This document shows, one piece after another, positions 1-10,880 of a stretch of 10,880 nucleotides of DNA. The number at the start of each line of letters is the position of its first letter. Position 1 is the first letter of the stretch. Position numbers and translations under genes: made by a program. This DNA is from Acetatifactor sp. GTDB taxonomy: Bacteria; Bacillota; Clostridia; Lachnospirales; Lachnospiraceae. The DNA is taken from NCBI GenBank assembly GCA_024699575.1, contig JAILPF010000549.1, forward strand, positions 1 to 10,880, in the 5' to 3' direction. The notes beneath the pieces were generated by a model. It was not told the DNA's origin. It did not search any database and was given only the letters and a program-made list of their open reading frames with translations.

Positions 1-1114
1 TATCACCTTTTAAGATATTAAACAACTGTGGCAGCTCATCAATTCTACATTTGCGGATAAAATTTCCCACCGGTGTAATTCTGGAATCATTCTTGCTGGC
101 AAGTCTCGCCACACCGTCTTTCTCAGCGTCCGTACGCATGCTGCGAAATTTCATAATTTTAAATTCCTTCTGCCCGATTGTGCAACGCACCTGTTTGTAC
201 AGGACCGGACCGCCGTCATAAAGTTTGATGGCAATCGCTGTCAATAGCATAATCGGGGATGCAATAATGAGGAGTAACAGTGCAAATACAATATCTCCAA
301 ATCTCTTTAAAAATCTCTGTTCCATTCTCAGATGATACTCTCTGGTGAGAAGAAGCGGTGTATCAAACACATGCAACTCTTCCGCTCCCATCATGATGAC
401 ATCCGGGATTTTGGGAAGAACATAAACACGGATAGATTTCTCATAGCAGTATTTGAAAAGCTTATTTCTCTGTTCCACGGAAATATCGCCCAAAACTACT
501 GCATTACATTCGCCGTTTGCATAGGCTGCCTCAATCTGCTTACGCACAGCCCGTATCCCCTTACGGATATTCACTGTCTGCACAATCTTGTATTTATCCT
601 TACGACTCGCAAATTTATTGCAGATATCATCAATCGGTCTGTTCCCGTGAACCAGAAGCAGCTTTCTGGGAGGGAACGCAGAGCGATATATTCTGTTTGC
701 TATATTAATATAAATGACGACAACCACCAGCTGTTCCAAAAACATAATGATAAAAACCTGCGGTGCCAGAAGCATGAAGGACATCATGGAGAGTTCGGCA
801 TAGATGACTCCATCCGCCATAATCGTTGCAAAAATCTGAGAAAAAATCAGCTCCCAGTTTTTCAAATATCCAAGACGCATTCCACCATACATATTGGATA
901 AGAAGAAAAGGATTACGCCGTAGATAGCAACCTCCAGCATATTTCCCTTGAAATAGATCTTTCTGGGTGCGTTAATCATGGTCGGGTTAAAGACGGTCAA
1001 CCAGTAGTATGTGAAAATTCCAATCTCCATTGCCAGGCAGATTGCCGACAGTCCCAGATTGATGACACGCTTAAACGATTCTATTCTTCTCAGTCTATTT
1101 TCATTGGTATTCAT
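1..1114 (-). CDS. Polyprenyl-phosphate sugar-1-phosphate transferase (initiating glycosyltransferase), C-terminus cut by the window edge
   Basis: Open frame from ATG at 1114 to the left edge, giving 371 residues without a stop. Members of this family (WcaJ/PglC-like, bacterial sugar transferase domain) attach the first sugar phosphate to undecaprenyl phosphate at the membrane and so start exopolysaccharide or capsule repeat units. Seen here: hydrophobic segments in the first ~140 residues (about 18-42, 60-75, 90-115, 118-138), a soluble middle region (~145-250), then the re-entrant hydrophobic stretch (~272-297) that begins the catalytic domain. KFRSM (322-326) and DELPQ (359-363) are hallmark motifs of the catalytic core. 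Roughly the last 90-100 residues lie outside the window, judging from a usual length near 460-470. A GGAGG lies 12 bases before the ATG, a rather long spacing. It follows the GT2 gene by 34 bases and is probably in the same operon. The sugar substrate cannot be read from the sequence. Confidence 0.93.
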   Translation of the reverse strand, partial: MNTNENRLRRIESFKRVINLGLSAICLAMEIGIFTYYWLTVFNPTMINAPRKIYFKGNMLEVAIYGVILFFLSNMYGGMRLGYLKNWELIFSQIFATIMADGVIYAELSMMSFMLLAPQVFIIMFLEQLVVVVIYINIANRIYRSAFPPRKLLLVHGNRPIDDICNKFASRKDKYKIVQTVNIRKGIRAVRKQIEAAYANGECNAVVLGDISVEQRNKLFKYCYEKSIRVYVLPKIPDVIMMGAEELHVFDTPLLLTREYHLRMEQRFLKRFGDIVFALLLLIIASPIMLLTAIAIKLYDGGPVLYKQVRCTIGQKEFKIMKFRSMRTDAEKDGVARLASKNDSRITPVGNFIRKCRIDELPQLFNILKGD

Positions 1115-1148
1115 ACCTTTTGCTTGCCTCCGTTATGTCTGTTCTTTT

Positions 1149-1898
1149 CTAGATTCTACGCTGTACCGCCCGGACTGCCCAAAAACAAAAATACCAGGCA
1201 CTGCTTATCACATTCATGCCTTCTGCCTTGCGGTACAGGTTCCAGATTCTCCGCAAAGCCTCAATCTTGTTCGAAGAAAGGCTTCCGCCCACTCTCCTGT
1301 AGCGCACAAGATTCTCGTTGAGTCCGTACGCCATGTATCCGTTTCTCAAAACTTTCCACCAAAGAGCAGTATCCTCACTTTTAATAATCGGCATCTCCAA
1401 CAGTTCCCGGGGAATTTTCTCCGTATCAAACATCACTGTGGATGTGAAGATTGTGGTATTCTTTAACGCATCTTTATATGTCATCTGTTCCGGCACACGC
1501 ACAATCTTACCGGTTCCTTGTCCGTTCGCATCCGCGAATTCATATCCGCTGAAGACAAACGCTGCCTCTTTTTTTTTCATGTATGTTATCTCTGCCGACA
1601 ACTTTTCCGGTTCCCACAAATCATCGGAATCCAGATAGGCAATATATCTGCCTTTTGCTTCCTTTAGCCCCTTGTTTCTCGCCTTGGCAGCTCCCATGTT
1701 GGATGGCTGGAAAATCAAGCGGATGCGATTATCCTGTTTGTTTTCCATGTATTTTCTGATTTTCGCAACTGTGCTGTCAGTACTTCCGTCTTCCACCAGA
1801 ATTAATTCCCAGTCAGTGTAAGTCTGCTTGCGCACGCTTTCTATTGTCTCTATGATATAGTTTTCCACGTTATAAACCGGTACAATTATACTGACCAT
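1149..1898 (-). CDS. Family 2 glycosyltransferase, TuaG-like
   Basis: A 249-residue GT-A fold glycosyltransferase of the GT2 family, expected to add a sugar from a nucleotide donor to a lipid-linked acceptor on the cytoplasmic face of the membrane. Seen: the N-terminal strand SIIVPVYN (3-10), VEDGSTD (35-41, uridine binding), NMGAAKARNKG (67-77), the metal-binding DSD inside YLDSDDLW (88-95), and a downstream SED (174-176) in the position of the family's acidic catalytic residue, followed by TALWWK. Length and motif order match B. subtilis TuaG of teichuronic acid synthesis, including a YGLNE...YR and SxSSNK ending, but GT2 specificity cannot be read from sequence. Start ATG at 1898 has AAGGA nine bases upstream. 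The stop of the upstream membrane-protein gene lies 18 bases before it, which supports one operon. Codons for K108-K110 form a run of nine A on the coding strand. Confidence 0.93.
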   Translation of the reverse strand: MVSIIVPVYNVENYIIETIESVRKQTYTDWELILVEDGSTDSTVAKIRKYMENKQDNRIRLIFQPSNMGAAKARNKGLKEAKGRYIAYLDSDDLWEPEKLSAEITYMKKKEAAFVFSGYEFADANGQGTGKIVRVPEQMTYKDALKNTTIFTSTVMFDTEKIPRELLEMPIIKSEDTALWWKVLRNGYMAYGLNENLVRYRRVGGSLSSNKIEALRRIWNLYRKAEGMNVISSAWYFCFWAVRAVQRRI

Positions 1899-1916
1899 TT
1901 CTAATATTCCTTCCGT

Positions 1917-2762
1917 CTACAACCAAAAAATAAGGTAGGAGTCGCTTATCCAGGTGGCCTCTCCCAGGCAGATATCCACATCTGACATCCCTTCATCGGA
2001 CAGTGTACCCGGTAAGATTATGCAGTCAACACCCAGATTTTTAGCAATATGCAGGCAGTCCTGCAAGGTTATCTCAGTGCCGTCTTCTGTAACCTGCCCA
2101 GTGTTTCCTGTCTCGGAGGCATTCTCCATCCACTCATACAAAGTATTTCTCTGTTCATCATACACATCATAAGAATAGGCATTCAAAGCTTTATCCCACA
2201 TATTTCTTCCGTATGGCAGAAGAATATCTCCATCCACAGCCCTTGCATACTCCAGGATTTCATGTGGCGCCCACAGAGTTATCTTTCCTTCTTCCTGCTG
2301 CTCTCTGAGAAGATCTAACATGTTAACTGTCGTTTGTAATTGCTCTTGTCTATTCAGAGTATCTCCCTGATTCCTCTGTAAATTACCACTAAAATAGGTC
2401 ATGACAACCAAAAGGACCGCAACGCCCCATTTTTGCCATGATTTCAGATTTCTCATCTCTTTATTTGTCCGAATCTCCGCAAGCAGCGTGGTTGCAGCAA
2501 CCGCGATAACAGCAGTGGTCGGCACCAGAGTCCAAATCCACTGATAATCGTAGAATTTCGTCTGGTACATCATGAGAAGCGCCGCTGTCAGCGGAAAAAT
2601 ACAGCTTGCGCTCATAACCACCGAATACCATAGAAACTGTTGTGCATCTTTCTTTTTATTGATTATCAGGTATAGAAGTGAAGCGAGAAGCAATGCGGCG
2701 TATTTTCCGCTGTCCGTGTATGCGCGCCACCCCTCATCAGCAAGTCTGATCCATTCAGCCAT
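1917..2762 (-). CDS. Membrane protein with extracytoplasmic C-terminal domain, polysaccharide operon
   Basis: 281 residues from the preferred start at 2762. I do not recognise a firm family. About four hydrophobic segments (20-35, 44-66, 73-94, 112-126) are followed by a soluble domain (~155-281) containing ITLWAPHEILEYAR and LGVDCIILP. Positive charges after segments 1 and 3 (NKKK; RTNKEMRNLK) place those loops inside, so the C-terminal domain is predicted to be outside. That layout resembles the C-terminal half of GT-C type, polyprenyl-phosphate-dependent glycosyltransferases, but this is inference. The frame also has an ATG at 2813, but only the ATG at 2762 has a strong AGGAGG at a 7-base spacing. 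It overlaps the preceding membrane-protein gene by 8 bases, so the two are probably translationally coupled and may form a complex. The role in surface polysaccharide assembly is inferred from neighbours. Confidence 0.85.
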   Translation of the reverse strand: MAEWIRLADEGWRAYTDSGKYAALLLASLLYLIINKKKDAQQFLWYSVVMSASCIFPLTAALLMMYQTKFYDYQWIWTLVPTTAVIAVAATTLLAEIRTNKEMRNLKSWQKWGVAVLLVVMTYFSGNLQRNQGDTLNRQEQLQTTVNMLDLLREQQEEGKITLWAPHEILEYARAVDGDILLPYGRNMWDKALNAYSYDVYDEQRNTLYEWMENASETGNTGQVTEDGTEITLQDCLHIAKNLGVDCIILPGTLSDEGMSDVDICLGEATWISDSYLIFWL

Positions 2763-3627
2763 GTCCTTTCCTCCTTTCGGAAAGTTTCCGCCAAATCCGG
2801 CCACATGCAACATAGAAGAAGGTAATCAGCACACAGGCGCCCATTCCGTAGAATGTCCACACAATACATGCTTCCGCCAAAATACACAGGACAATGCCAA
2901 TCCGGTTCCTTCTGATAAGAAGGCTGAACAGATAGGGCACTATCACTGCCATTCTGATAGTCGCTCCGCGATAACCGGCATGAAGTACTCCAAAACCTTC
3001 CATCCCGTACATATAATCTCCAAATGAGATCAAAATAGCAACACACAGCAAAAATACACTTTGCTTCCAGGTATCTTCCGCAAACAAAGCTTCTGCAAGT
3101 GCACTGTATGCAAAATAGGCAAGTGCCAGCACAATAGCCGGTACCAGTTGTTGTATAATAAAATAACTCTCCAACGGTATCACTCTGCAAAGAAATGCAT
3201 AGAGCATTGGCAGACTGATTATTTTCAGTCTCATGGGCATCCCCTGCGCAAAGGCTTGTCCCGTCAGCGGATTGATTTGATAAATAGTATCTGTAGTCAA
3301 CATGGTGTTCACCGTCTCTACTGTCAGGTCTCCCCCATCATATACATTTTTCCCCTGCAAAATATATAGAAGCTGGAGCAGAAACAGTGCAATAAATGCA
3401 AGATGTACTATCTTTCCCTGCCCTGTAAGCGCGATTCTATGTGTCTCTTTCGCAGGCAGGAAGATTACAGCAATCATCAGGATCACGCAGGCAGCGATAA
3501 ACAACCTGATACCTGCCGAAAAAGGCTTGTGAAGAACAATTGCAACCAGATTCGCCACCTCAGAAAGTCCTATTATCAATAAAAATCCTATCAGTATTTT
3601 ATCTGCACGAGTCAGTTTATTTTCCAT
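2755..3627 (-). CDS. Polytopic membrane protein, possibly DUF6077-like, first gene of the polysaccharide operon
   Basis: 290 residues from the preferred start at 3627. Hydrophobic segments lie at about 11-31, 38-57, 72-91, 136-150, 158-182, 188-206, 224-238, 243-259 and 261-276. A polar stretch after segment 3 holds VYDGGDLTVETVNTML (95-110) and YQINPLTG (116-123), the sort of conserved first extracytoplasmic loop found in GT-C enzymes. DYMYGMEGFGVLHAGYRG (204-221) is another likely conserved loop. From memory this resembles clostridial DUF6077 proteins found in polysaccharide clusters, but I cannot confirm that. The ATG at 3651 lacks a ribosome binding site, while the ATG at 3627 has GAGAGG six bases upstream. 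The C-terminus is basic (RKLSERRKGHG) and probably cytoplasmic. It is the first gene after a terminator and a probable promoter, and it overlaps the next gene by 8 bases. Confidence 0.85.
   Translation of the reverse strand: MENKLTRADKILIGFLLIIGLSEVANLVAIVLHKPFSAGIRLFIAACVILMIAVIFLPAKETHRIALTGQGKIVHLAFIALFLLQLLYILQGKNVYDGGDLTVETVNTMLTTDTIYQINPLTGQAFAQGMPMRLKIISLPMLYAFLCRVIPLESYFIIQQLVPAIVLALAYFAYSALAEALFAEDTWKQSVFLLCVAILISFGDYMYGMEGFGVLHAGYRGATIRMAVIVPYLFSLLIRRNRIGIVLCILAEACIVWTFYGMGACVLITFFYVACGRIWRKLSERRKGHG
2770..2775 (-). promoter_or_regulatory. Ribosome binding site deciding the start of the 281-residue membrane protein
   Basis: AGGAGG on the minus strand, seven bases before the ATG at 2762. 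It lies inside the end of the preceding gene. It favours the 2762 start over the in-frame ATG at 2813. Confidence 0.85.
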
Positions 3628-3658
3628 CGGTTTCCTCTCAATGCTTTTCATCAGTTAC

Positions 3659-3687
3659 AGAATATCATTTTTAGCCCAAAATCGCAA
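3659..3687 (-). promoter_or_regulatory. Candidate sigma-A promoter of the polysaccharide operon
   Basis: On the minus strand, TTGCGA (3687-3682) and TATTCT (3664-3659) are separated by 17 bases. TGA directly precedes the -10, an extended -10 feature. Each hexamer matches consensus at four of six positions, so it is moderate by sequence. Its placement just after a terminator and about 30 bases before the first gene supports it. The -35 begins immediately after the terminator's T run. Confidence 0.45.
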
Positions 3688-3723
3688 TAAAAAAAGGCAG
3701 CCATGATACAATCTCATGGCCGC
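3688..3723 (-). terminator. Rho-independent terminator of the Spo0A-domain gene
   Basis: On the minus strand a 10-bp stem, GCGGCCATGA with TCATGGCTGC and one G-U pair, closes a 7-base loop and is followed by C and a run of seven T. It lies about 60 bases past the stop at 3784, and the intervening bases show nothing clear. It separates the regulator gene from the polysaccharide operon. Confidence 0.88.
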
Positions 3724-3783
3724 ATGACAGTACACAATCACAGAACATTCCAAAATTTATCTGAATTTGTTCTTCCTGACAGT

Positions 3784-4161
3784 TTACATAGCTTTGAAGT
3801 CCAGTCTGACCTTGTCCGCAATACGGGCTATGTATTCACTGTTAGTCGGTCTGGTTCTACCAGATACCGCAGAATAACCAAACATCTTTTCAAAAGTATC
3901 AACGTTCCCTCTACACCACGAAACCTCTATAGCATTCCTTATTGCACGTTCTACCTTCTGGTCCGTAGTTTTAAATCTTCTGGCAATAGTAGGGTAGAGC
4001 AGTTTCGTCACACTGCTTACCACTTCCATATCTCTACCTGACAGCAGGATTGCATCTCGCAGGTAATGATATCCTTTTAAATGCGCCGGCACTCCAACGT
4101 CCAGCATAATGTTGGTAATATATCTCTCCAGTTCGTAGTCGTTAACAGAAGCAATCTCCAT
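3784..4161 (-). CDS. Stand-alone Spo0A-type DNA-binding domain protein (no receiver domain)
   Basis: 125 residues from the preferred start at 4161. Nearly the whole protein corresponds to the C-terminal effector domain of Spo0A, the sporulation master regulator that binds 0A boxes. Motifs shared with Spo0A of Bacillus, recalled from memory, are GVPAHLKGYHYLRDAI, TKLLYPTIARRF, TTDQKVERAIRNAIEVSW with RGN (helix-turn-helix region), FGY, and RPTNSEYIARIADKVRL near the C-terminus. The CheY-like receiver with its phospho-acceptor aspartate is absent, and the upstream DNA has no room for it because the HPr terminator lies there. The product should therefore bind DNA without phosphorylation. An ATG at 4179 is possible but has no good ribosome binding site, whereas AAAGGGG lies eight bases before 4161. 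0A boxes upstream suggest Spo0A control or autoregulation. Target genes are unknown; the polysaccharide operon lies just downstream. Confidence 0.93.
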   Translation of the reverse strand: MEIASVNDYELERYITNIMLDVGVPAHLKGYHYLRDAILLSGRDMEVVSSVTKLLYPTIARRFKTTDQKVERAIRNAIEVSWCRGNVDTFEKMFGYSAVSGRTRPTNSEYIARIADKVRLDFKAM

Positions 4162-4180
4162 AATGAATTCCCCTTTCATA

Positions 4181-4187
4181 TGTCGAG
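4181..4187 (+). promoter_or_regulatory. Near-match 0A box, leader of the Spo0A-domain gene
   Basis: TGTCGAG on the plus strand, one mismatch from the Spo0A box TGTCGAA. It lies about 20 bases before the start codon, downstream of the probable transcription start, a position that would suit repression. On its own it is weak; two perfect boxes nearby raise its interest. Confidence 0.35.
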
Positions 4188-4217
4188 TTCTGTTCTATGT
4201 TGCGACTGCCAGTGTTC

Positions 4218-4245
4218 ATATTACCATATTGTCGAAAAAATGCAA
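4218..4245 (-). promoter_or_regulatory. Candidate promoter of the Spo0A-domain gene
   Basis: On the minus strand, TTGCAT (4245-4240) and TAATAT (4223-4218) with a 16-base spacer. Both hexamers match sigma-A consensus at only four of six positions or so. No convincing sigma-H promoter was found. A perfect 0A box fills much of the spacer. Confidence 0.35.
4229..4236 (+). promoter_or_regulatory. Perfect 0A box (Spo0A binding site)
   Basis: TTGTCGAA on the plus strand, an exact match to the Spo0A consensus TGTCGAA with the favoured leading T. It sits between the candidate -35 and -10 of the Spo0A-domain gene, so binding there should affect that promoter. Known: Spo0A effector domains bind this heptamer. 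Inferred: use by this gene's own product, by full-length Spo0A, or by both. Confidence 0.65.
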
Positions 4246-4262
4246 TCTTTTTTCATCGCGCG

Positions 4263-4270
4263 TTTCGACA
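4263..4270 (-). promoter_or_regulatory. Second perfect 0A box (Spo0A binding site)
   Basis: TGTCGAAA on the minus strand, 34 bases upstream of and in the opposite orientation to the box at 4229. It lies just upstream of the candidate -35 and between it and the HPr terminator hairpin, a place typical of an activator or cooperative site. Confidence 0.6.
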
Positions 4271-4279
4271 TAAATATTT

Positions 4280-4304
4280 AAGAGGTCGATGAAATCGACC
4301 TCTT
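4280..4304 (-). terminator. Perfect 11-bp hairpin after the HPr gene, probable terminator
   Basis: AAGAGGTCGAT, a 3-base loop, then ATCGACCTCTT, with no mismatch, starting 14 bases past the HPr stop. The bases after it on the minus strand (AAATATTTATG) are T-rich but not a clean T run, so termination may be partial. The symmetric stem could also act as a protein-binding palindrome, since it contains TCGA cores and lies 9 bases from a 0A box. Confidence 0.65.
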
Positions 4305-4318
4305 CTCAATTAATAATC

Positions 4319-4582
4319 TTATTCTCCAAGCCCACTCTCGACTGCTGCAACCAAAGCTTTGAGCGCTTCTGCCTCATCTTCACCCTCGCAGACAAACTCA
4401 ATCTCATCGCCACATTTTACGCAAGCTCCCAGCACGCTTAACACGCTTTTTGCATTTGCGGTGCTTTCGCGAAATGTAAAAGTAATCAATGATTTAAACT
4501 GCATTGCCTCTTTGCACAAAATTCCTGCGGGTCTAAGATGCAAGCCAGTCGGATTCTTAATTACGACTTTCTGACTTACCAT
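4319..4582 (-). CDS. ptsH: HPr phosphocarrier protein
   Basis: 87 residues, the normal HPr length. HPr carries phosphate from enzyme I to sugar-specific EIIA proteins in the cytoplasm. The active-site histidine is His15 in NPTGLHLRPAG (10-20). The regulatory serine is Ser46 in AKSVLSVLG (44-52), the site used by HPr kinase in Firmicutes for CcpA-dependent catabolite control, so this is a full HPr and not a Crh-type protein lacking His15. KCGDEIEF (56-63) is the usual following strand. ATG at 4582 has GGAGG seven bases upstream. The gene appears monocistronic, with its own promoter and a hairpin after it. Enzyme I is not in the window, and whether this is the only HPr of the organism is unknown. 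Confidence 0.95.
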   Translation of the reverse strand: MVSQKVVIKNPTGLHLRPAGILCKEAMQFKSLITFTFRESTANAKSVLSVLGACVKCGDEIEFVCEGEDEAEALKALVAAVESGLGE

Positions 4583-4610
4583 GGTTATTCCTCCACTTCC
4601 TTATGCGTCA

Positions 4611-4624
4611 GCTGTTCTAACAGC
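4611..4624. repeat. Perfect palindrome in the HPr leader
   Basis: GCTGTTAGAACAGC (minus-strand sense), two perfect 6-bp arms around AG, lies between the candidate promoter and the ribosome binding site of the HPr gene. It is a possible operator or a small leader hairpin. I cannot name a regulator. Confidence 0.4.
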
Positions 4625-4638
4625 CTCCCCTTATATAA

Positions 4639-4667
4639 ACTATATCAGATTTATGCGACAACCACAA
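4639..4667 (-). promoter_or_regulatory. Candidate sigma-A promoter of the HPr gene
   Basis: On the minus strand, TTGTGG (4667-4662), a 17-base spacer, and TATAGT (4644-4639) preceded by TGA, giving an extended -10. The -10 matches consensus at five of six positions and the -35 is poor. Transcription would start about 50 bases before the HPr start codon. Confidence 0.6.
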
Positions 4668-4696
4668 GCTAAAAATTAGCAATCGGTGTTCCTCTT

Positions 4697-5974
4697 TCAC
4701 TGGTCGTTTTCGTCGGTTTTCTGAAAGTTTATTCTTACTGTAATATTCTGCTTTACCTTCACTCCATCCGGCAAATTTAAAGTAACCGGGATGCTGTGTG
4801 TAGCTTCAGTCAGTTCTTCAATGCCCTCTTCTTCCATCCAGGCTTCCACATCCACTCTCGGATTGAGTCTCACCCGGTTGATTCCGGCTATATCGGCATC
4901 TCTTCCTGTAATCTCCAGATGATAGCTTGTCTCAGAGAGACTTGCTTCAAAGCCTTCTGGCACATTAATCAACTGAATATCTCCTTCGGTAAGTTCCAGT
5001 GTCTTTTCTTTCACCGGTTCAATAGCAACAGTCGCTGTTACCTTACCCTGGAAGCTGCTGTCTGCAAACTTAACGTTCTCAGGCAGATATTCTTTGATAT
5101 TTACGATATCCGTCAAATCTTCATTTGCACCTGTAATATTTAAGCGTTCCTCTGGAATCGAAATCTTTGTAACGCCCGCAAGGTTTGTCGGTGTTCCGGC
5201 TATTTTTACCGTCTCCGGATCACACCATACTTCGCCGGTAGCCATGTATCCGCTCTCCGGAATGCCCATATAATTCACCTCAATCGGCACTTCTTTCACC
5301 GCAAGCACTTCGACAGACATACGCACATAATTTACACGCTTCTGAATATTTTTGGCCTCAAGCAGATTATCATCTGCATCGTAGAAAGAAATATCCACAT
5401 AAGCTGACATATTCGTGTTAAATCCGGTCACATCAATTTCCACTGCCGCATAACTGATTTTTTCAATGATGGACCTTGGACCGGATACCTCCAGCGCAGT
5501 CGGATCCGGATCCACTTTCGATATCATATACCCGTCAGCGACTTCACCTATCGTATTATAAATTACACGCACCATCTTGCTTGCTTTGTCCTCTACATTC
5601 AGGCGAATCACATCGTGATTACCTTCGATGGAATAATCCGCATTGACATTCTGCAGATTGTATGTGATAGGAATGGTATTGATATCTGTCAGTCTGCTCA
5701 CATCTGCTTCTGCCACCACATCGCCGGAACGCAACTGTCCGATAACACTCTTCGGGGCACGCACCGTCACGCTGACGATATCTGTGTCATCCAACACCTC
5801 ATAAACTTTATTCTCATTCTCCAGCAATTCCTGGTTGATGAGATTGACACGAATGTTGTTCAAAGTCTTTGTATCTTTGGGATCATTAAACTGTACAACA
5901 ACAAACCAAAGCAATGCGGCCAGGAATAATGAAGCCAGCTTTAAAGTCCAGTTGTTTAAGATTCGTTTTTTCAT
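4697..5974 (-). CDS. cdaR: CdaR, membrane-anchored YbbR-repeat regulator of the diadenylate cyclase CdaA
   Basis: 425 residues. A single N-terminal membrane segment (about 10-28, LKLASLFLAALLWFVVVQF) follows a basic MKKR start, so the rest of the protein lies outside the cell membrane. About four YbbR-type beta repeats follow, at roughly 35-127, 132-222, 224-318 and 325-418. Each has the pattern of a short VP/IPV strand, a conserved G-Y or G-F turn (DGYM, SGYM, EGFE) and a SGP / AGTP / TGR strand near its end. CdaR proteins bind CdaA and tune c-di-AMP synthesis in Firmicutes. The start ATG overlaps the cdaA stop by four bases (ATGA), which is strong evidence of coupled translation. The acidic C-terminal tail (KTDENDQ) is short. 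No clear terminator follows; the small GCTAA/TTAGC inverted repeat after the stop is weak. Confidence 0.93.
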   Translation of the reverse strand: MKKRILNNWTLKLASLFLAALLWFVVVQFNDPKDTKTLNNIRVNLINQELLENENKVYEVLDDTDIVSVTVRAPKSVIGQLRSGDVVAEADVSRLTDINTIPITYNLQNVNADYSIEGNHDVIRLNVEDKASKMVRVIYNTIGEVADGYMISKVDPDPTALEVSGPRSIIEKISYAAVEIDVTGFNTNMSAYVDISFYDADDNLLEAKNIQKRVNYVRMSVEVLAVKEVPIEVNYMGIPESGYMATGEVWCDPETVKIAGTPTNLAGVTKISIPEERLNITGANEDLTDIVNIKEYLPENVKFADSSFQGKVTATVAIEPVKEKTLELTEGDIQLINVPEGFEASLSETSYHLEITGRDADIAGINRVRLNPRVDVEAWMEEEGIEELTEATHSIPVTLNLPDGVKVKQNITVRINFQKTDENDQ

Positions 5975-6849
5975 TTCTTAGCCAGGCTCCTTCCCCATTT
6001 ACGTATGCCTCGATTCTTTTCCTCCCCATTCTTATTCAAAATCTGCTGCATGCGCTCACGCAGTTTTTCTCCATCCAGATTACGTATAATCTTGCCTTCA
6101 TAGGCTACACTGATTTTTCCTGTTTCCTCCGAGACAATAACCGTCAGGGAATCTGTCACCTCAGAAATACCTACCGCTGCACGATGCCTGGTTCCCAATT
6201 CCTTACTAAGACCCAGATTATCCGAAAGCGGAAGATAACAAGTGGCCGATGTGATACGGTTCCCTCTGACGATAACAGCTCCGTCATGGAGTGGCGTATT
6301 GTGCTCGAAAATATTAATCAGAAGCTGGCTGCTTACAATTCCGTCGATATCAATTCCTGTTCTCTCATAATCCTTCAGCGATACTTTCTGTTCAATGACA
6401 ATAAGGGCTCCGGTCTTAGCCTTGCCCATTTCCACACACGCTTTGCTGATTTCATTGATAGTCTTTTCAGAGAATATCTCCTCAGTACGATGTCCATTGT
6501 CAAAAGGGAACACCGAGGAGAAGAAATTCTTTTTACCAAGCTCTTCCAAAACCTTACGCAGTTCCGGCTGCAGAACCACAATCAATGCAGTCACTGCAAA
6601 TCCCAAAACATTCTGCGCCATCCATAAAATGGTATACATTTTCAGGAAATATGCAATTGTCAAAAATACAATAATCACAATCAGGCCTTTTAATAAAGCC
6701 CAGGCTCTGGTGTTTTTCATCCACACCAGAATATAGTATAGGATGCTCGCGATAACCAAGATTTCCAGCACATCGCCAAAATCCATCATAGTCCTATACA
6801 TGCTGAAATTTTCTACCAGCGTTTCAAACGCTTTGTCAATCCATCCCAT
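5971..6849 (-). CDS. cdaA: CdaA, membrane-bound diadenylate cyclase
   Basis: 292 residues. It condenses two ATP into cyclic di-AMP, which controls potassium and osmolyte transport and cell-wall homeostasis in Firmicutes. Three membrane segments lie at about 26-46, 51-70 and 75-94, followed by the DAC (DisA_N) domain from ~96 to ~265. Catalytic signatures are present: HDGA (188-191) and RHRAA (221-225), plus NTPLHDGAVIVRG and the ATYLPLS-like CYLPLS (204-209). The family is usually about 270-290 residues, so this looks complete, with a basic tail (KNRGIRKWGRSLAKK). The ATG at 6849 has AGGA about ten bases upstream, and the gene lies 30 bases after the unknown multi-TM gene. It is coupled to cdaR by the ATGA overlap. 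No promoter is obvious just upstream, so expression probably comes from further up the gene run. Confidence 0.96.
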   Translation of the reverse strand: MGWIDKAFETLVENFSMYRTMMDFGDVLEILVIASILYYILVWMKNTRAWALLKGLIVIIVFLTIAYFLKMYTILWMAQNVLGFAVTALIVVLQPELRKVLEELGKKNFFSSVFPFDNGHRTEEIFSEKTINEISKACVEMGKAKTGALIVIEQKVSLKDYERTGIDIDGIVSSQLLINIFEHNTPLHDGAVIVRGNRITSATCYLPLSDNLGLSKELGTRHRAAVGISEVTDSLTVIVSEETGKISVAYEGKIIRNLDGEKLRERMQQILNKNGEEKNRGIRKWGRSLAKK

Positions 6850-6879
6850 ACTGTTTCATTCCTACTCGTTGTTTATCAG

Positions 6880-7941
6880 TTAGAACAATTCCTCAAAGTC
6901 ATCTTCCTCTGAGGGAATGTTACTTCCTACTGTTACGCTTCTACCCGCAGGTCTTTGTGTCCTCGCCCTTTCACCCGGGCGGTCATACACAGTTCTCTCC
7001 GTAACCACGCTACGGCTCTGCGTGTTGATTGTCTTTACTGTCTTAGACGGTGTGGAGACACTCATCTTGGGTACTGCTTTCACATAATAATAATATTCAT
7101 CGTCTTCAAACTGCACCTTTTCTGTTCTGCTGTAGTCCACACAGAATCTGAAGAACTCAATCACTTTCGCCACAGCAGCAGCAAGTATGGAGCCTAAAAT
7201 CACACCTGCCACCGGCATGTTGGTGTCATACAGCAGATCGCCCACCATGACTATCATCATATCAAGCAAGGCTCCTGCCACAATCGCTATGCTCCAGGAA
7301 TGATCCATGGACATTCTGCGGATTATATATACCGCTTCAACCGTAATCGCAAATGCAACAACCATAACAATCATCGCTTTGTTACCGATGAAGCCATCAA
7401 TAATCAGTCTGAGTCTGGCAATTGCTTCCGCATCCTCCATCGTGCTGATGGTCGGAGCGTTTGTCATAACAGCCTGCATCAAATAGTATGCAGTCACACC
7501 GAATCCCACCGAAACCGCTGATGCAGGAGTTCCCAAAAGTCCCATTGCAAGAGGCATAACATAGGGAATCCGCAGCGCAAACAGCAGCGGAGTTAGCACT
7601 ACCACCAAAGACTCTTTCGGGCTAAAGCGGAAAAATAATAAAAACATAACCAGATACAGGCAGATTCCCACGATAGCCACTTCCATTGACAGCGCATACA
7701 TGTGTGCCAGACTGAACAACGCTGCCAAGAAGACAAGTCCGGTCACCGGCAGGAATGAGCAGGCTAATGACACAATCAAAGTGATTGCAATGTTATCAAG
7801 CCTGTTCATATAACCAAGTTTGCTGTTCAGGGTGTTCAACACGATGAACGCCAAAAGGAATTTCACCACCGGCAGTATAAACACCTCATATTTACTGTAA
7901 AATCTCTTAATATTCTCTCTAAATTCCAATAATCCCGTCAT
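6880..7941 (-). CDS. Multi-TM protein of unknown function with charged cytoplasmic tail, upstream of cdaA
   Basis: 353 residues, no family recognised. Hydrophobic segments lie at about 20-38, 50-64, 66-84, 86-104, 111-124, 127-158 (possibly two), 189-207, 215-236 and 243-264, so eight or so membrane spans fill residues 20-264. The remaining ~90 residues are polar and probably cytoplasmic. They hold an acidic and tyrosine-rich patch (FEDDEYYYYV, 278-287), a Ser/Thr/Arg-rich low-complexity stretch (294-340), and an acidic end, EEDDFEELF. The polar segment TNAPTISTMEDAEAIARL (160-177) between spans looks like a conserved loop. ATG at 7941 is preceded by GAGGAG. It sits 30 bases before cdaA in the same gene run, so a link to c-di-AMP signalling or the envelope is possible, but only by position. 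Confidence 0.88.
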   Translation of the reverse strand: MTGLLEFRENIKRFYSKYEVFILPVVKFLLAFIVLNTLNSKLGYMNRLDNIAITLIVSLACSFLPVTGLVFLAALFSLAHMYALSMEVAIVGICLYLVMFLLFFRFSPKESLVVVLTPLLFALRIPYVMPLAMGLLGTPASAVSVGFGVTAYYLMQAVMTNAPTISTMEDAEAIARLRLIIDGFIGNKAMIVMVVAFAITVEAVYIIRRMSMDHSWSIAIVAGALLDMMIVMVGDLLYDTNMPVAGVILGSILAAAVAKVIEFFRFCVDYSRTEKVQFEDDEYYYYVKAVPKMSVSTPSKTVKTINTQSRSVVTERTVYDRPGERARTQRPAGRSVTVGSNIPSEEDDFEELF

Positions 7942-7980
7942 TCTACTCCTCGCTTCCGCTGGTTCATCAGGCTTCGCTCA

Positions 7981-8373
7981 TTACTGTTCGTTATGATACA
8001 TCGCATTCAGCTTTTTCAGATTTTGATAATAATTCTTGAGACTTTTCCGAGCTTTTGAATAGCGGTAAGAAAAGATTCCGTAAGAAATAACTCCATATAC
8101 CACAACCGTGCCTAGGTACCACGTCAGCACATTCTTTGCAAAAGCCAGTAAATCCATTTTGTAGATATCCTGCATAAAGCTTTCAAAATCATAAAACAGG
8201 AACAGAGCAAAAACCATAGCAAAAGCTATGGTTGCGCAAATAACGGATTTCATTACCTGAACTGCAATATAGTCATTACGGAAGTAGTTTCCGATGCTCA
8301 CATTCTTCTTGCCTTCGTTCTGTTCATATGATGCCATATGTGTCATCAATATAACACGTTCTTCCTTTAACAT
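7981..8373 (-). CDS. Small two-TM protein of unknown function
   Basis: 130 residues from the preferred start at 8373. The first ~38 residues are polar, followed by two membrane segments (about 41-61 and 82-102) and a basic C-terminal tail (YRYSKARKSLKNYYQNLKKL) that is probably cytoplasmic and helical. The upstream ATG at 8379 abuts the GGAG of the ribosome binding site and cannot use it, while the ATG at 8373 has six bases of spacing. An ATG at 8337 has no ribosome binding site. It lies 42 bases after the YvyF-like gene and 39 bases before the large unknown membrane gene, in one run. I recognise no family; a partner role with the next membrane protein is only a guess. Confidence 0.8.
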   Translation of the reverse strand: MLKEERVILMTHMASYEQNEGKKNVSIGNYFRNDYIAVQVMKSVICATIAFAMVFALFLFYDFESFMQDIYKMDLLAFAKNVLTWYLGTVVVYGVISYGIFSYRYSKARKSLKNYYQNLKKLNAMYHNEQ

Positions 8374-8379
8374 TGTCAT

Positions 8380-8383
8380 CTCC
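8380..8383 (-). promoter_or_regulatory. Ribosome binding site deciding the start of the small two-TM protein
   Basis: GGAG touches the ATG at 8379 with no spacing but sits six bases before the ATG at 8373, so the later ATG is preferred. The difference is two residues. Confidence 0.65.
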
Positions 8384-8415
8384 GATTCTGATTTAGTCTT
8401 AACGTAAGCTGTTCG

Positions 8416-8823
8416 TTACTGTAAGAATCTCATTCGAGGATTCTCTTTTTCATTCTTGGGGGTAGGTGCCTGTACCGGAGCGGATTGTCTCATCACATTT
8501 CTGAAGCCGTTGGTCATGGTCGCCTTACATTTATCGCAGTATCTTCCGGAGCGGATATTTGCACCACATCCCTCACAGCTCAGATAAATTGCGGAGGCCT
8601 CTGTCACTTCCAGCCTTTCCTCACGCAGCCACTGCTGAATCTGGGTAGGTTCCACATCGCATGCCTCGGAGACCTCTGTCATGGAGACGCCCGGGTTGGC
8701 ACGAATGTACTCTTTTACCTCCTGAAATTTCACTTCCATTTTATCTCTACAGGACTGGCATAGTAGTGCACCTGCAACATAGTTAAAAATACGTCCGCAT
8801 CCTCTACAGTTTCTAATGTCCAT
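8416..8823 (-). CDS. YvyF-like zinc-ribbon protein (flagellar operon protein family)
   Basis: 135 residues from the ATG at 8823, which has GAGG eight bases upstream; the longer frame to 8901 would run far into comFC and has no such signal. Two zinc-ribbon-like four-cysteine sites flank a central helical region: C6-x2-C9 with C22-x2-C25, and C83-x2-C86 with C96-x2-C99. The middle (about 33-75, GVSMTEVSEACDVEPTQIQQWLREERL) looks like a MerR/excisionase-type winged helix. This plan matches B. subtilis YvyF (TIGR03826, about 139 residues), which lies right after comFC and before flgM there. The same comFC-yvyF order is seen here. The C-terminus is a disordered Pro/Gln/Asn tail. A role in flagellar regulation is known only by association; no flagellar gene is in the window. 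Confidence 0.88.
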   Translation of the reverse strand: MDIRNCRGCGRIFNYVAGALLCQSCRDKMEVKFQEVKEYIRANPGVSMTEVSEACDVEPTQIQQWLREERLEVTEASAIYLSCEGCGANIRSGRYCDKCKATMTNGFRNVMRQSAPVQAPTPKNEKENPRMRFLQ

Positions 8824-8842
8824 ACAATTTACCTCACTTTTC

Positions 8843-9550
8843 CTAGTCTCCGCTACCACTCGAAAGAGTAACAAAATAGACTTTTTGCACGCCACTCCCA
8901 AGTAATGTCACCGTAGCCTCGTCTATTGTACTTCCGGTTGTGAATATATCATCTACCAGTACTATTTGCTTTAATTTTACATCATTTCTGCCTATAATAA
9001 AAGCCTTTTTCAAATTATTTTGTCTTTCTTCCGGATTTTGTGTTTTCAGTGGTCTTGTATTTTTGATACGTACAAGATAATCCGGATAAACCGGTATGCC
9101 AAGACACTTTCCCATTGATTTTGCCAGAAGTTCGGCCTGATTATATCCTCGAGTCCGTTCTCTGCTTCTATGCAGCGGAATGGGCACAATTCCATCCGGA
9201 TTCACCTGTCGGATAAATTCACCCAGGTATTTTGCCATCTCCCTGCCATAATAGCCGGCATATTCGCGTCTGCCCGCATATTTCATCCGGTATATGCTTT
9301 TGACAACACTGTCATATTCATAGAGTGAACGCCCTCTGACGAACTTACGCTCTAATCTTTGGCAGTCAAAGCACAGTACGCCCTCATCCTGCAGTTTCTT
9401 CCCGCATTTCATGCACCACGGCGGGAGCAGAAACTGTACCTGTCTGATACATTCCGGGCAGATATCCTGTCCGATCGGCACCGGTTCATCACAGACCGGA
9501 CACCGGTACGGGAAAAAAAGTCTCAATCCGTTTTCAATTGTTTTTCTCAA
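8843..9550 (-). CDS. comFC: ComFC-family protein (phosphoribosyltransferase fold with N-terminal zinc fingers)
   Basis: 235 residues, complete for the ComF/GntX family. The N-terminal part has four Cys pairs, CPVC (17-20), CPEC (31-34), CMKC (46-49) and CFDC (60-63), a double zinc-binding module. The C-terminal PRT-like domain carries VPIPLHRSRERTRGYNQAE (122-140) and the PRPP-binding loop VLVDDIFTTGST (197-208). In naturally competent bacteria ComFC acts in handling transforming DNA in the cytoplasm, but the family is also kept in species not known to be competent. The start codon is TTG at 9550, one base after the recD2 stop; no in-frame ATG occurs until about residue 89, past the zinc module. 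GGAAAGG six bases upstream, inside the end of recD2, supports TTG. The next gene starts 19 bases after its stop. Confidence 0.94.
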   Translation of the reverse strand: MRKTIENGLRLFFPYRCPVCDEPVPIGQDICPECIRQVQFLLPPWCMKCGKKLQDEGVLCFDCQRLERKFVRGRSLYEYDSVVKSIYRMKYAGRREYAGYYGREMAKYLGEFIRQVNPDGIVPIPLHRSRERTRGYNQAELLAKSMGKCLGIPVYPDYLVRIKNTRPLKTQNPEERQNNLKKAFIIGRNDVKLKQIVLVDDIFTTGSTIDEATVTLLGSGVQKVYFVTLSSGSGD

Positions 9551-9551
9551 A

Positions 9552-10880
9552 TTATGCCTTTCCGGCCTTCTCCATAATTCTTTGAGTCAATCCGGTGTAT
9601 CGCCGGGTTTCGCTGACATTTCCAATCATTTCTCTCACCGTCTCGCTGCTTCCGAGAATTGTGACGCAATTTTTCGCTCTGGTTATCGCCGTATAAAGTA
9701 AATTACGATTAAACAACATTCTGGGTCCGCCGAGCAGTGGTAGAATTACCGCCGGGTACTCACTTCCCTGCGATTTGTGAATGGTCACAGCATAGGACAG
9801 CTCCAATTCCTCCAACAGTGCAAAGGGATATGTCACCCTCCTGTGTTCGTCATACTCAACAATCAGGGAGGATGCGCTTTCGTTAATCTCAAGGATGCGC
9901 CCCATGTCACCGTTAAAGATTCCCGTTCCCCCGTCTATCGGAATTCCATAACGGCTCACAATCTCCCATTCCAGCTGATAGTTATTACGAATCTGCATTA
10001 CCTTATCACCCTCACGGTAAATCCGTTCGCCCACCTGATGTTCTCTCTTATGTATATCCGGCGGATTCAGATAACGCTGCAGGATTCCGTTCAGTGTCTC
10101 ACACCCCAGACTTCCCTTTCGCATAGGGGTCAGCACCTGTATATCAAATGGTGTAGCTTTCACATAACCGGGCAGTTTTTCCTGAATCAATTGTATCATA
10201 TGTTTATATATGACATTCACGTCGTTTCTTTCCAGCATAAAGAAATCTTTCGACTTATTGTCCATTGTTATCTGTTCGCCATGATTAATCCGATGTGCAT
10301 TGACAACAATGTCACTTTCTTCTGCCTGACGAAATATTTTCTGCAGAACAATCATCGGAAACACACCACTGTTCATGATATCTCTCAGTACTTGTCCTGG
10401 TCCAACGCTTGGCAGCTGATCCACATCTCCCACAAGAATCAACCTGGTGCCCGGAATGACCGCAGAGAGCAGTGCCCGGAACAATTGAATATCTACCATC
10501 GACATTTCATCAATAATAATAACATCTGTTTCTAATGGATTATCCCTGTTGCGTTCAAAGCTTACTTTCCTTGAGGATTCATCAGATAATGCACTGTTCA
10601 GTTCCAACATTCTGTGTATGGTACGGGCTTCAAATCCCGTCGCCTCAGTCATTCTCTTTGCTGCTCTGCCGGTCGGCGCCGCAAGCATGATATCCATTCC
10701 CTCCGATTCAAAGTAGTGGATAATCATATTGATTGTCGTCGTTTTACCGGTTCCCGGACCACCCGAAAGAATAAACAGTCCATTGCGGATACACTGCATG
10801 ACAGCTTCCATTTGCAGTCCGTCTAATTCCATGCCGAGTTTTTCCGCCATCTGTGTCAGTTTTTGTTCCAGTTTCTTTTG
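9552..10880 (-). CDS. recD2: RecD2-type 5'-3' DNA helicase, N-terminus cut by the window edge
   Basis: The frame is open to the right edge, giving the last 442 residues of a protein usually about 730-750 long. RecD2 is an SF1B helicase that unwinds DNA in the 5'-3' direction in the cytoplasm and acts in repair without RecBC. Motifs, numbered from the window edge, are Walker A GGPGTGKTT (40-48), motif Ia APTGRAAKRM (68-77), Walker B IIIDEMSMVD (121-130), motif III GDVDQLPSVGPG (151-162), motif IV LQKIFRQAEES (179-189), motif V AVTIHKSQGSEY (364-375) and motif VI LLYTAITRAK (394-403). The N-terminal domain lies outside the window. The ATG at 10850 is internal and not a start. The stop lies one base from the comFC start. 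Confidence 0.95.
   Translation of the reverse strand, partial: QKKLEQKLTQMAEKLGMELDGLQMEAVMQCIRNGLFILSGGPGTGKTTTINMIIHYFESEGMDIMLAAPTGRAAKRMTEATGFEARTIHRMLELNSALSDESSRKVSFERNRDNPLETDVIIIDEMSMVDIQLFRALLSAVIPGTRLILVGDVDQLPSVGPGQVLRDIMNSGVFPMIVLQKIFRQAEESDIVVNAHRINHGEQITMDNKSKDFFMLERNDVNVIYKHMIQLIQEKLPGYVKATPFDIQVLTPMRKGSLGCETLNGILQRYLNPPDIHKREHQVGERIYREGDKVMQIRNNYQLEWEIVSRYGIPIDGGTGIFNGDMGRILEINESASSLIVEYDEHRRVTYPFALLEELELSYAVTIHKSQGSEYPAVILPLLGGPRMLFNRNLLYTAITRAKNCVTILGSSETVREMIGNVSETRRYTGLTQRIMEKAGKA
9557..9563 (-). promoter_or_regulatory. Ribosome binding site supporting the TTG start of comFC
   Basis: GGAAAGG within the last codons of recD2, six bases before TTG. It indicates coupled translation and explains the non-ATG start. 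Confidence 0.7.

Follow-up and report, generated by a model that had tools for sequence, protein, structure and literature searches.

Paired receiver-less Spo0A proteins in Acetatifactor and related Lachnospiraceae, and a possible sporulation circuit set by Spo0A amount

The window analyzed here, a stretch of 10,880 nucleotides from an Acetatifactor sp. genome (GCA_024699575.1, contig JAILPF010000549.1, positions 1 to 10,880), carries a short gene whose product consists of a Spo0A effector domain (Spo0A_C) and nothing beyond it (Table 1). The gene lies between those encoding HPr and a DUF6077 protein, and it does not occupy the recN-spoIVB-spo0A place of family TIGR02875. An alternative in-frame ATG at position 4179 would give a product of 131 residues instead of 125. 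As the earlier note had described, a hairpin lies upstream and there is no space for a receiver, because the HPr gene and this hairpin adjoin the 5' side of the short gene; as far as hairpins tell, the short gene would be alone in its transcription unit. Farther upstream, beyond the HPr gene, positions 4697-6849 hold an ordinary housekeeping block with a YbbR-like gene (Pfam YbbR, 92 bits) and the gene for the diadenylate cyclase CdaA (249.5 bits).

Table 1. Features in and around the short gene, in window positions.
Feature	Position	Strand	Remarks
DUF6077 gene	2755-3651	(-)	Downstream of the short gene, on the same strand
Terminator-like hairpin and T-run	3697..3723	(-)	After the short gene
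Short gene, receiver-less Spo0A	3784..4161	(-)	125 aa, stand-alone Spo0A_C effector domain; start ATG at 4161, stop at 3784
Ribosome-binding site GAAAGGGG	4170..4177	(-)	8 bases 5' of the ATG at 4161; conserved in the alignment of 70 short promoters
0A-box-like TGTCGAG in the leader	4181..4187	(+)	One mismatch to TGTCGAA; TCGACA core here in many relatives
Likely extended -10 element TGGTAATAT (TG-N-TAATAT)	4218..4226	(-)	Inferred from the 70-promoter consensus TATGnTAnAAT
Perfect 0A box TGTCGAA	4230..4236	(+)	3 bases 5' of the extended -10 element
Another perfect 0A box TGTCGAA, more distal to the gene	4264..4270	(-)	Conservation in relatives lower
Terminator-like hairpin after the HPr gene	4280..4304	(-)	Divides HPr from the short gene
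HPr gene	4319-4582		Upstream of the short gene

The short protein matched Pfam Spo0A_C (PF08769) with 131.9 bits against a cut-off of 25, over profile positions 1-103 of 104, in agreement with the earlier note's description of a 125-residue stand-alone effector domain lacking a receiver. Its match to the NCBIfam Spo0A model (TIGR02875) reached 163.8 bits, under the cut-off of 200, and covered only model positions 144-261 of 262; the N-terminal receiver with a phosphorylatable aspartate that belongs to this family is absent. Residues 11-124 aligned without gaps to the effector domains of 1lq1 and 1fc3, and the AlphaFold2 model (mean pLDDT 92.2) found the same structures in Foldseek (1fc3_A, E 3.3e-9, TM-score by query 0.84; 1lq1_C, E 4.3e-9, TM-score 0.83), the modelled fold being that of the Spo0A trans-activation domain.

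Relatives of the short gene were compared at 80 loci of species genomes, kept out of 226 found, in which the domain extent was repeated over 123-125 of the 125 residues with 82-93% identity. Because of this equal extent, a sequencing error is not the cause of the missing receiver, and a frameshifted full-length spo0A, for which there is no space upstream either, was ruled out; the earlier note had pointed to such an error, and also to a degenerate recognition helix, as findings that would speak against it. Degeneration was not seen, as the recognition helix QKVERAIRNAIEVSW was present in 70 of 70 aligned short sequences (locus L164, outside that set, has QR). The helix keeps the core VERAIR, with Q, K, N, and S replacing the S, R, H, and A of Bacillus Spo0A in all 70 aligned sequences, and since these four positions deviate, the target sites of the short protein may differ. 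The pN/pS ratio over 63 short sequences was 0.125, a rough value with pS nearly saturated (0.7-0.8). The short gene is real, conserved, and under selection.

The exact 0A box TGTCGAA occurs three times in the whole window against 1.57 expected. Promoter sets were assembled for 70 of the 81 short genes (80 loci plus the window) and for 48 genes of the long form described below, the others having been missed by the motif or being short of upstream DNA. An exact box was found in 33 of the 70 short promoters, that of the window included, and 37 had none; the 37 hits compare with a mean of 1.58 and a largest value of 6 in dinucleotide shuffles, although hits in these promoters, like those at the spoIIGA loci considered below, come from related species and are not independent. 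The commonest box, TTTCGACA, stands immediately 5' of the extended -10 consensus TATGnTAnAAT. Just 5' of the ribosome-binding site there is a recurrent TCGACA core. A consensus promoter scan of the window did not detect the extended -10 element at 4218..4226. Boxes placed in this way, between -35 and -10 and again in the leader, point to repression; the short gene would then be under negative autoregulation, or the long form would cross-control it.

The earlier note had proposed searching the genome for a full-length spo0A and counting the stand-alone domains. The assembly to which the window belongs (3.16 Mb in 598 contigs, 77.8% complete) yielded two Spo0A_C matches, both receiver-less, namely the short gene and a 174-residue long form on another contig, adjoining glgA; a receiver-bearing Spo0A was not found in this 77.8% of a genome. 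Across the genus, Spo0A_C was matched in 60 of 61 genomes (by a fragment only in G025), and among the 29 of high quality at least two copies were present in 26, one in two (G035 and G039, in both cases the long form by score and frame), and none in G046. No receiver-bearing Spo0A was detected in 60 of the 61 genomes, a set with 29 of high quality and many incomplete ones. The genus sequences read were the 30 top-scoring places (L084-L113) plus those of G053 and G040, and 31 of these 32 were long forms, the remaining one being a full-length Spo0A in G019. Three other open frames of at least 240 aa turned out to be long forms read on upstream, and the places left unread have open frames of at most 222 residues, too short for receiver plus effector. 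The usual set of the genus is thus a pair, one long (around 174 aa) and one short, as also found in Acetatifactor muris DSM 23669 (isolated from mouse gut), D16-50, IMSAGC_003, and B63, each with a long and a short copy and without a full-length one; A. muris, D16-50, and B63 overlap the genus sample, their match coordinates being identical to those of G041, G014, and G047. This survey ruled out, as the whole explanation, a full-length Spo0A that the window genome has but its assembly misses.

The exceptional full-length spo0A of G019 lies on a contig of 3.26 kb, next to a glgA gene 52% identical to that of the window genome, the corresponding identities being 79% for G002, of the same genus, and 74% for G300, of another one. 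G019 also has a place scoring as a long form (C268, open frame of 186). The contig with the full-length gene is probably foreign contamination.

The long form, of around 174 aa, is made up of some 37 residues of receiver, a variable linker, and the effector, and it lacks the aspartate that is phosphorylated in Spo0A. The consensus of its first 37 residues is MEQLNxxxTKDNExxxKILxDLMxxDKEFQIMITVPS, and homology of this stub to the start of the Spo0A receiver was supported by an HMM trained on 27 of the 30 full-length loci, under which 47 of 50 sequences outscored all of 10,000 shuffles. The recognition helix, SRVERAIRHAIEVAW, is identical to that of Bacillus in 50 of 50. From 30 genus sequences, pN/pS was 0.139 for the stub, 0.704 for the linker, and 0.069 for the effector, with pS again nearly saturated (0.7-0.8), ratios by which the stub appears constrained and the linker nearly free. 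In the AlphaFold2 model, the stub had low confidence (block means of 53-66 over residues 1-30) and was little informative.

The gene order recN-spoIVB-spo0A-glgA of G300, which has a full-length Spo0A, reappears in G002 as recN-spoIVB-long form-glgA, with a cellulase gene inserted after spoIVB. Pfam backs spoIVB, the cellulase, the starch synthase, and the RecF/RecN/SMC family, the latter below cut-off in the cut gene of G300 (34.4 of 40 bits); we take this gene to be recN from its position. As this order is kept, the long form is the spo0A ortholog, at or near the ancestral place. Boxes were not clearly enriched in the long-gene promoters, where 4 of 48 carried one (5 hits against 1.53 expected, the largest shuffle giving 5).

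A family sample of 250 genomes from 249 genera of Lachnospiraceae was also searched. The Spo0A model was matched in 161 of them, including 138 full-length, a class assigned by match extent and open frame and not by reading each sequence, 20 from 19 genera with receiver-less forms only, and three unclear ones left out of the receiver-less count (G220, at a contig end; G183, full-length with a disrupted effector; G123, 61% complete). The 20 comprise G000 and G045 plus one genome from each of 18 other genera, and in 17 of these 18 the long form was read and has both the stub and the same effector. The 18th is G096, counted as receiver-less, where an in-frame TAG lies inside the effector domain of the long gene (G096:C88, L163) and where spoIVA and a short gene are present. 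The TIGR02875 cut-off was exceeded by 152 of the 161 genomes, against 138 counted as full-length; the window genome's own long form scores 195.6 bits, and because long forms of other genera can exceed 200, this score is blind to receiver loss. Full-length regulators with a weak Spo0A_C-like end (38-84 bits) in G146, G159, G259, and G280 were set aside as a distant family.

Several further arrangements were seen in this sample. G124 (98% complete, SpoIVA present) has five very diverged stand-alone Spo0A_C genes (L294, L296, L298, L300, and L301; 70-84 bits, open frames of 115-209 aa), and the full-length Spo0A model finds nothing in it. G294 (L308), G063 (L309), and G166 (L310) carry a third receiver-less paralog, likewise diverged, the N-terminus of L309 and L310 resembling the long-form stub by eye. 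In G182, G126, and G300, receiver-less paralogs (L252, L253, and L260, respectively) accompany a retained full-length Spo0A, and their position outside the long and short clades of the quick tree suggests separate origins. Adjacent pairs of full-length spo0A genes were found in G099, G129, G165, G190, G210, G221, G234, G242, G247, and G302. In a class-wide search, 225 of 293 genomes matched, 218 of them over the cut-off, with the weakest best matches outside Lachnospiraceae in G378, G374, G321, and G353; receiver-less Spo0A may exist outside the family.

In a careful tree of 93 effector-domain rows, long and short forms stood together opposite all 38 full-length rows with support of 94/93, a value that was not starred and is not decisive, the bootstrap not having settled. 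The short clade (100/100) branched among the long rows. A quick tree of 121 rows, many of them on long branches, placed the long and short clades apart; the careful tree is this set minus 28 rows of 21 loci, mostly long-branched. The careful topology agrees with a single receiver loss, after which a duplication would have yielded the short gene.

Genes of sporulation accompany both kinds of Spo0A. In the family sample, SpoIVA, which by itself is no proof of sporulation, was present in 132 of the 138 full-length genomes, 18 of the 20 receiver-less-only ones, all three unclear ones, and 6 of the 89 without a Spo0A match, after one sub-cut-off match (G121) was dropped. G195 and G261 (96-97% complete) have SpoIVA and no Spo0A_C match at E 0.01. 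Within the genus, SpoIVA, SpoIVB, and SpoIIGA were found in 27, 27, and 28 of the 29 high-quality genomes; over all 61 the counts are 47, 50, and 54. The only high-quality genome without Spo0A_C, G046, lacks all three.

At 24 of 30 genus loci, fetched out of the 54 genomes that have spoIIGA, a perfect TGTCGAA was found no more than 300 bp upstream of the match to this gene, against 0.78 expected from shuffles, and six had no exact box; the slices are the 300 bp before the profile match, so that loci lying at the end of a contig (L224, L228, and L290 among them) may be mis-sliced. The box was also present in 8 of 15 receiver-less genera other than this one (0.32 hits expected) and in 4 of 15 full-length genera (0.53 expected), and because full-length genera carry it too, these boxes do not reveal which protein uses them.

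According to passages of PMC3485338, contacts of the receiver inhibit the effector in Spo0A, and the isolated effector domain of Clostridioides difficile binds 0A boxes unphosphorylated. With this precedent, we consider it fairly probable that the product of the window gene is a constitutive companion, autoregulated and binding 0A boxes, in a sporulation circuit set by the amount of Spo0A and not by its phosphorylation. An ancestor within one part of the Lachnospiraceae would have lost the phosphorylatable receiver, leaving at the old spo0A place a gene for a stub without the phosphorylated aspartate plus an effector; the window gene, as a second copy, would encode the effector alone, so that a two-gene receiver-less set would replace the ordinary Spo0A. 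Both proteins would bind 0A boxes without phosphorylation, as the isolated effector does, and if they are permanently competent for binding, the signal should work through their amounts, through the stub, or through partners, amount being the most likely readout. The short protein may tune the occupancy of shared 0A boxes, probably repressing its own gene. Because sporulation genes and 0A boxes are kept, it is most likely that the two-gene set continues to drive sporulation entry. Whether the clade as a whole, with 19 sampled genera of gut Lachnospiraceae, enters sporulation without Spo0A phosphorylation, the decision being taken by two constitutive DNA-binding proteins through their amounts and shared boxes, or by a signal acting via the conserved stub, appears to us an evenly balanced matter.

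In the main rival explanation, the short protein would have left sporulation and be dedicated to the neighboring envelope or exopolysaccharide genes, the long form alone running sporulation. The neighborhood is indeed conserved: a DUF6077 relative occurs in 75 of the 80 loci (in 74 no more than 701 bp downstream of the short gene and on the same strand), glycosyltransferase relatives in 75, and sugar transferase relatives in 70. The four deviating positions of the recognition helix also agree with such a specialization, as does the retention of spoIVA in G035 and G039 without a short gene. However, a terminator-like hairpin ends the short gene, no exact box lies between it and the DUF6077 gene in the window, and 0A boxes are in its own promoter. 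We hold this explanation unlikely as a whole, although it could be partly true alongside control by amount; the link to surface polysaccharides suggested in the earlier note is one of conserved neighborhood only.

It is quite unlikely, in our view, that the clade is non-sporulating and that both proteins are remnants of a lost programme kept only for stationary-phase control. In a passage of PMC12536801, 24 of 24 Lachnospirales MAGs of one set were classified as non-sporulating, with Acetatifactor among the named genera, and a brief literature search did not find a sporulation phenotype for the genus. Nevertheless, SpoIVA, SpoIVB, and SpoIIGA persist in nearly all its high-quality genomes (27-28 of 29) and are lost jointly with Spo0A_C in G046, and the boxes upstream of spoIIGA persist too. 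The view of the earlier note, in which the short protein would be a plain constitutive competitor of, or bypass around, phosphorylated full-length Spo0A, has become very improbable, since a receiver-bearing Spo0A to compete with was found neither in the window genome nor in 60 of the 61 genomes of the genus; it could apply to a genome like G300, where a full-length Spo0A coexists with a diverged stand-alone domain encoded separately.

Activation of Spo0A by phosphorylation is the textbook commitment step, and a lineage with spore genes and 0A boxes but without a phosphorylatable Spo0A would break this rule. In PMC6136694, in the part available, Spo0A is described as a canonical response regulator of all known sporulators, and spore formation is predicted from whether spo0A is present (excerpts of PMC8340488 and PMC11536998); mis-scoring of this clade would bias such predictions. 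A gene-name survey reported, in a passage of PMC11170972, some human-gut Lachnospiraceae with relatively complete sporulation genes that have lost spo0A, which the receiver-less set may explain. No description of a natural receiver-less Spo0A, of the loss of the receiver-bearing form, or of the pairing was found in the open-licence literature. The proteins do appear in annotation, as the earlier note had supposed: the Lachnospiraceae records named "Spo0A C-terminal domain-containing protein" or "sporulation transcription factor Spo0A" are these same proteins, known from annotation only.

We are thus dealing with a variant of Spo0A, whose consequence would be unusual if the clade sporulates, as it would represent a way of deciding not yet described. 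The short form shares with Spo0A (TIGR02875) the effector domain and its fold (1lq1, 1fc3) and the VERAIR core; like Spo0A it occurs together with spore genes, and 0A boxes lie in its own promoter as well as in target promoters, whereas Spo0A has a receiver and a phosphorylation site and the short form falls below the family cut-off. In make-up it resembles the Spo0A-DBD constructs of C. difficile and B. subtilis, the same domain alone, which bind TGTCGAA unphosphorylated according to a passage of PMC3485338; but those were made in the laboratory, whereas the short form comes from a natural gene that many species conserve and that has as its partner a Spo0A retaining a receiver stub.
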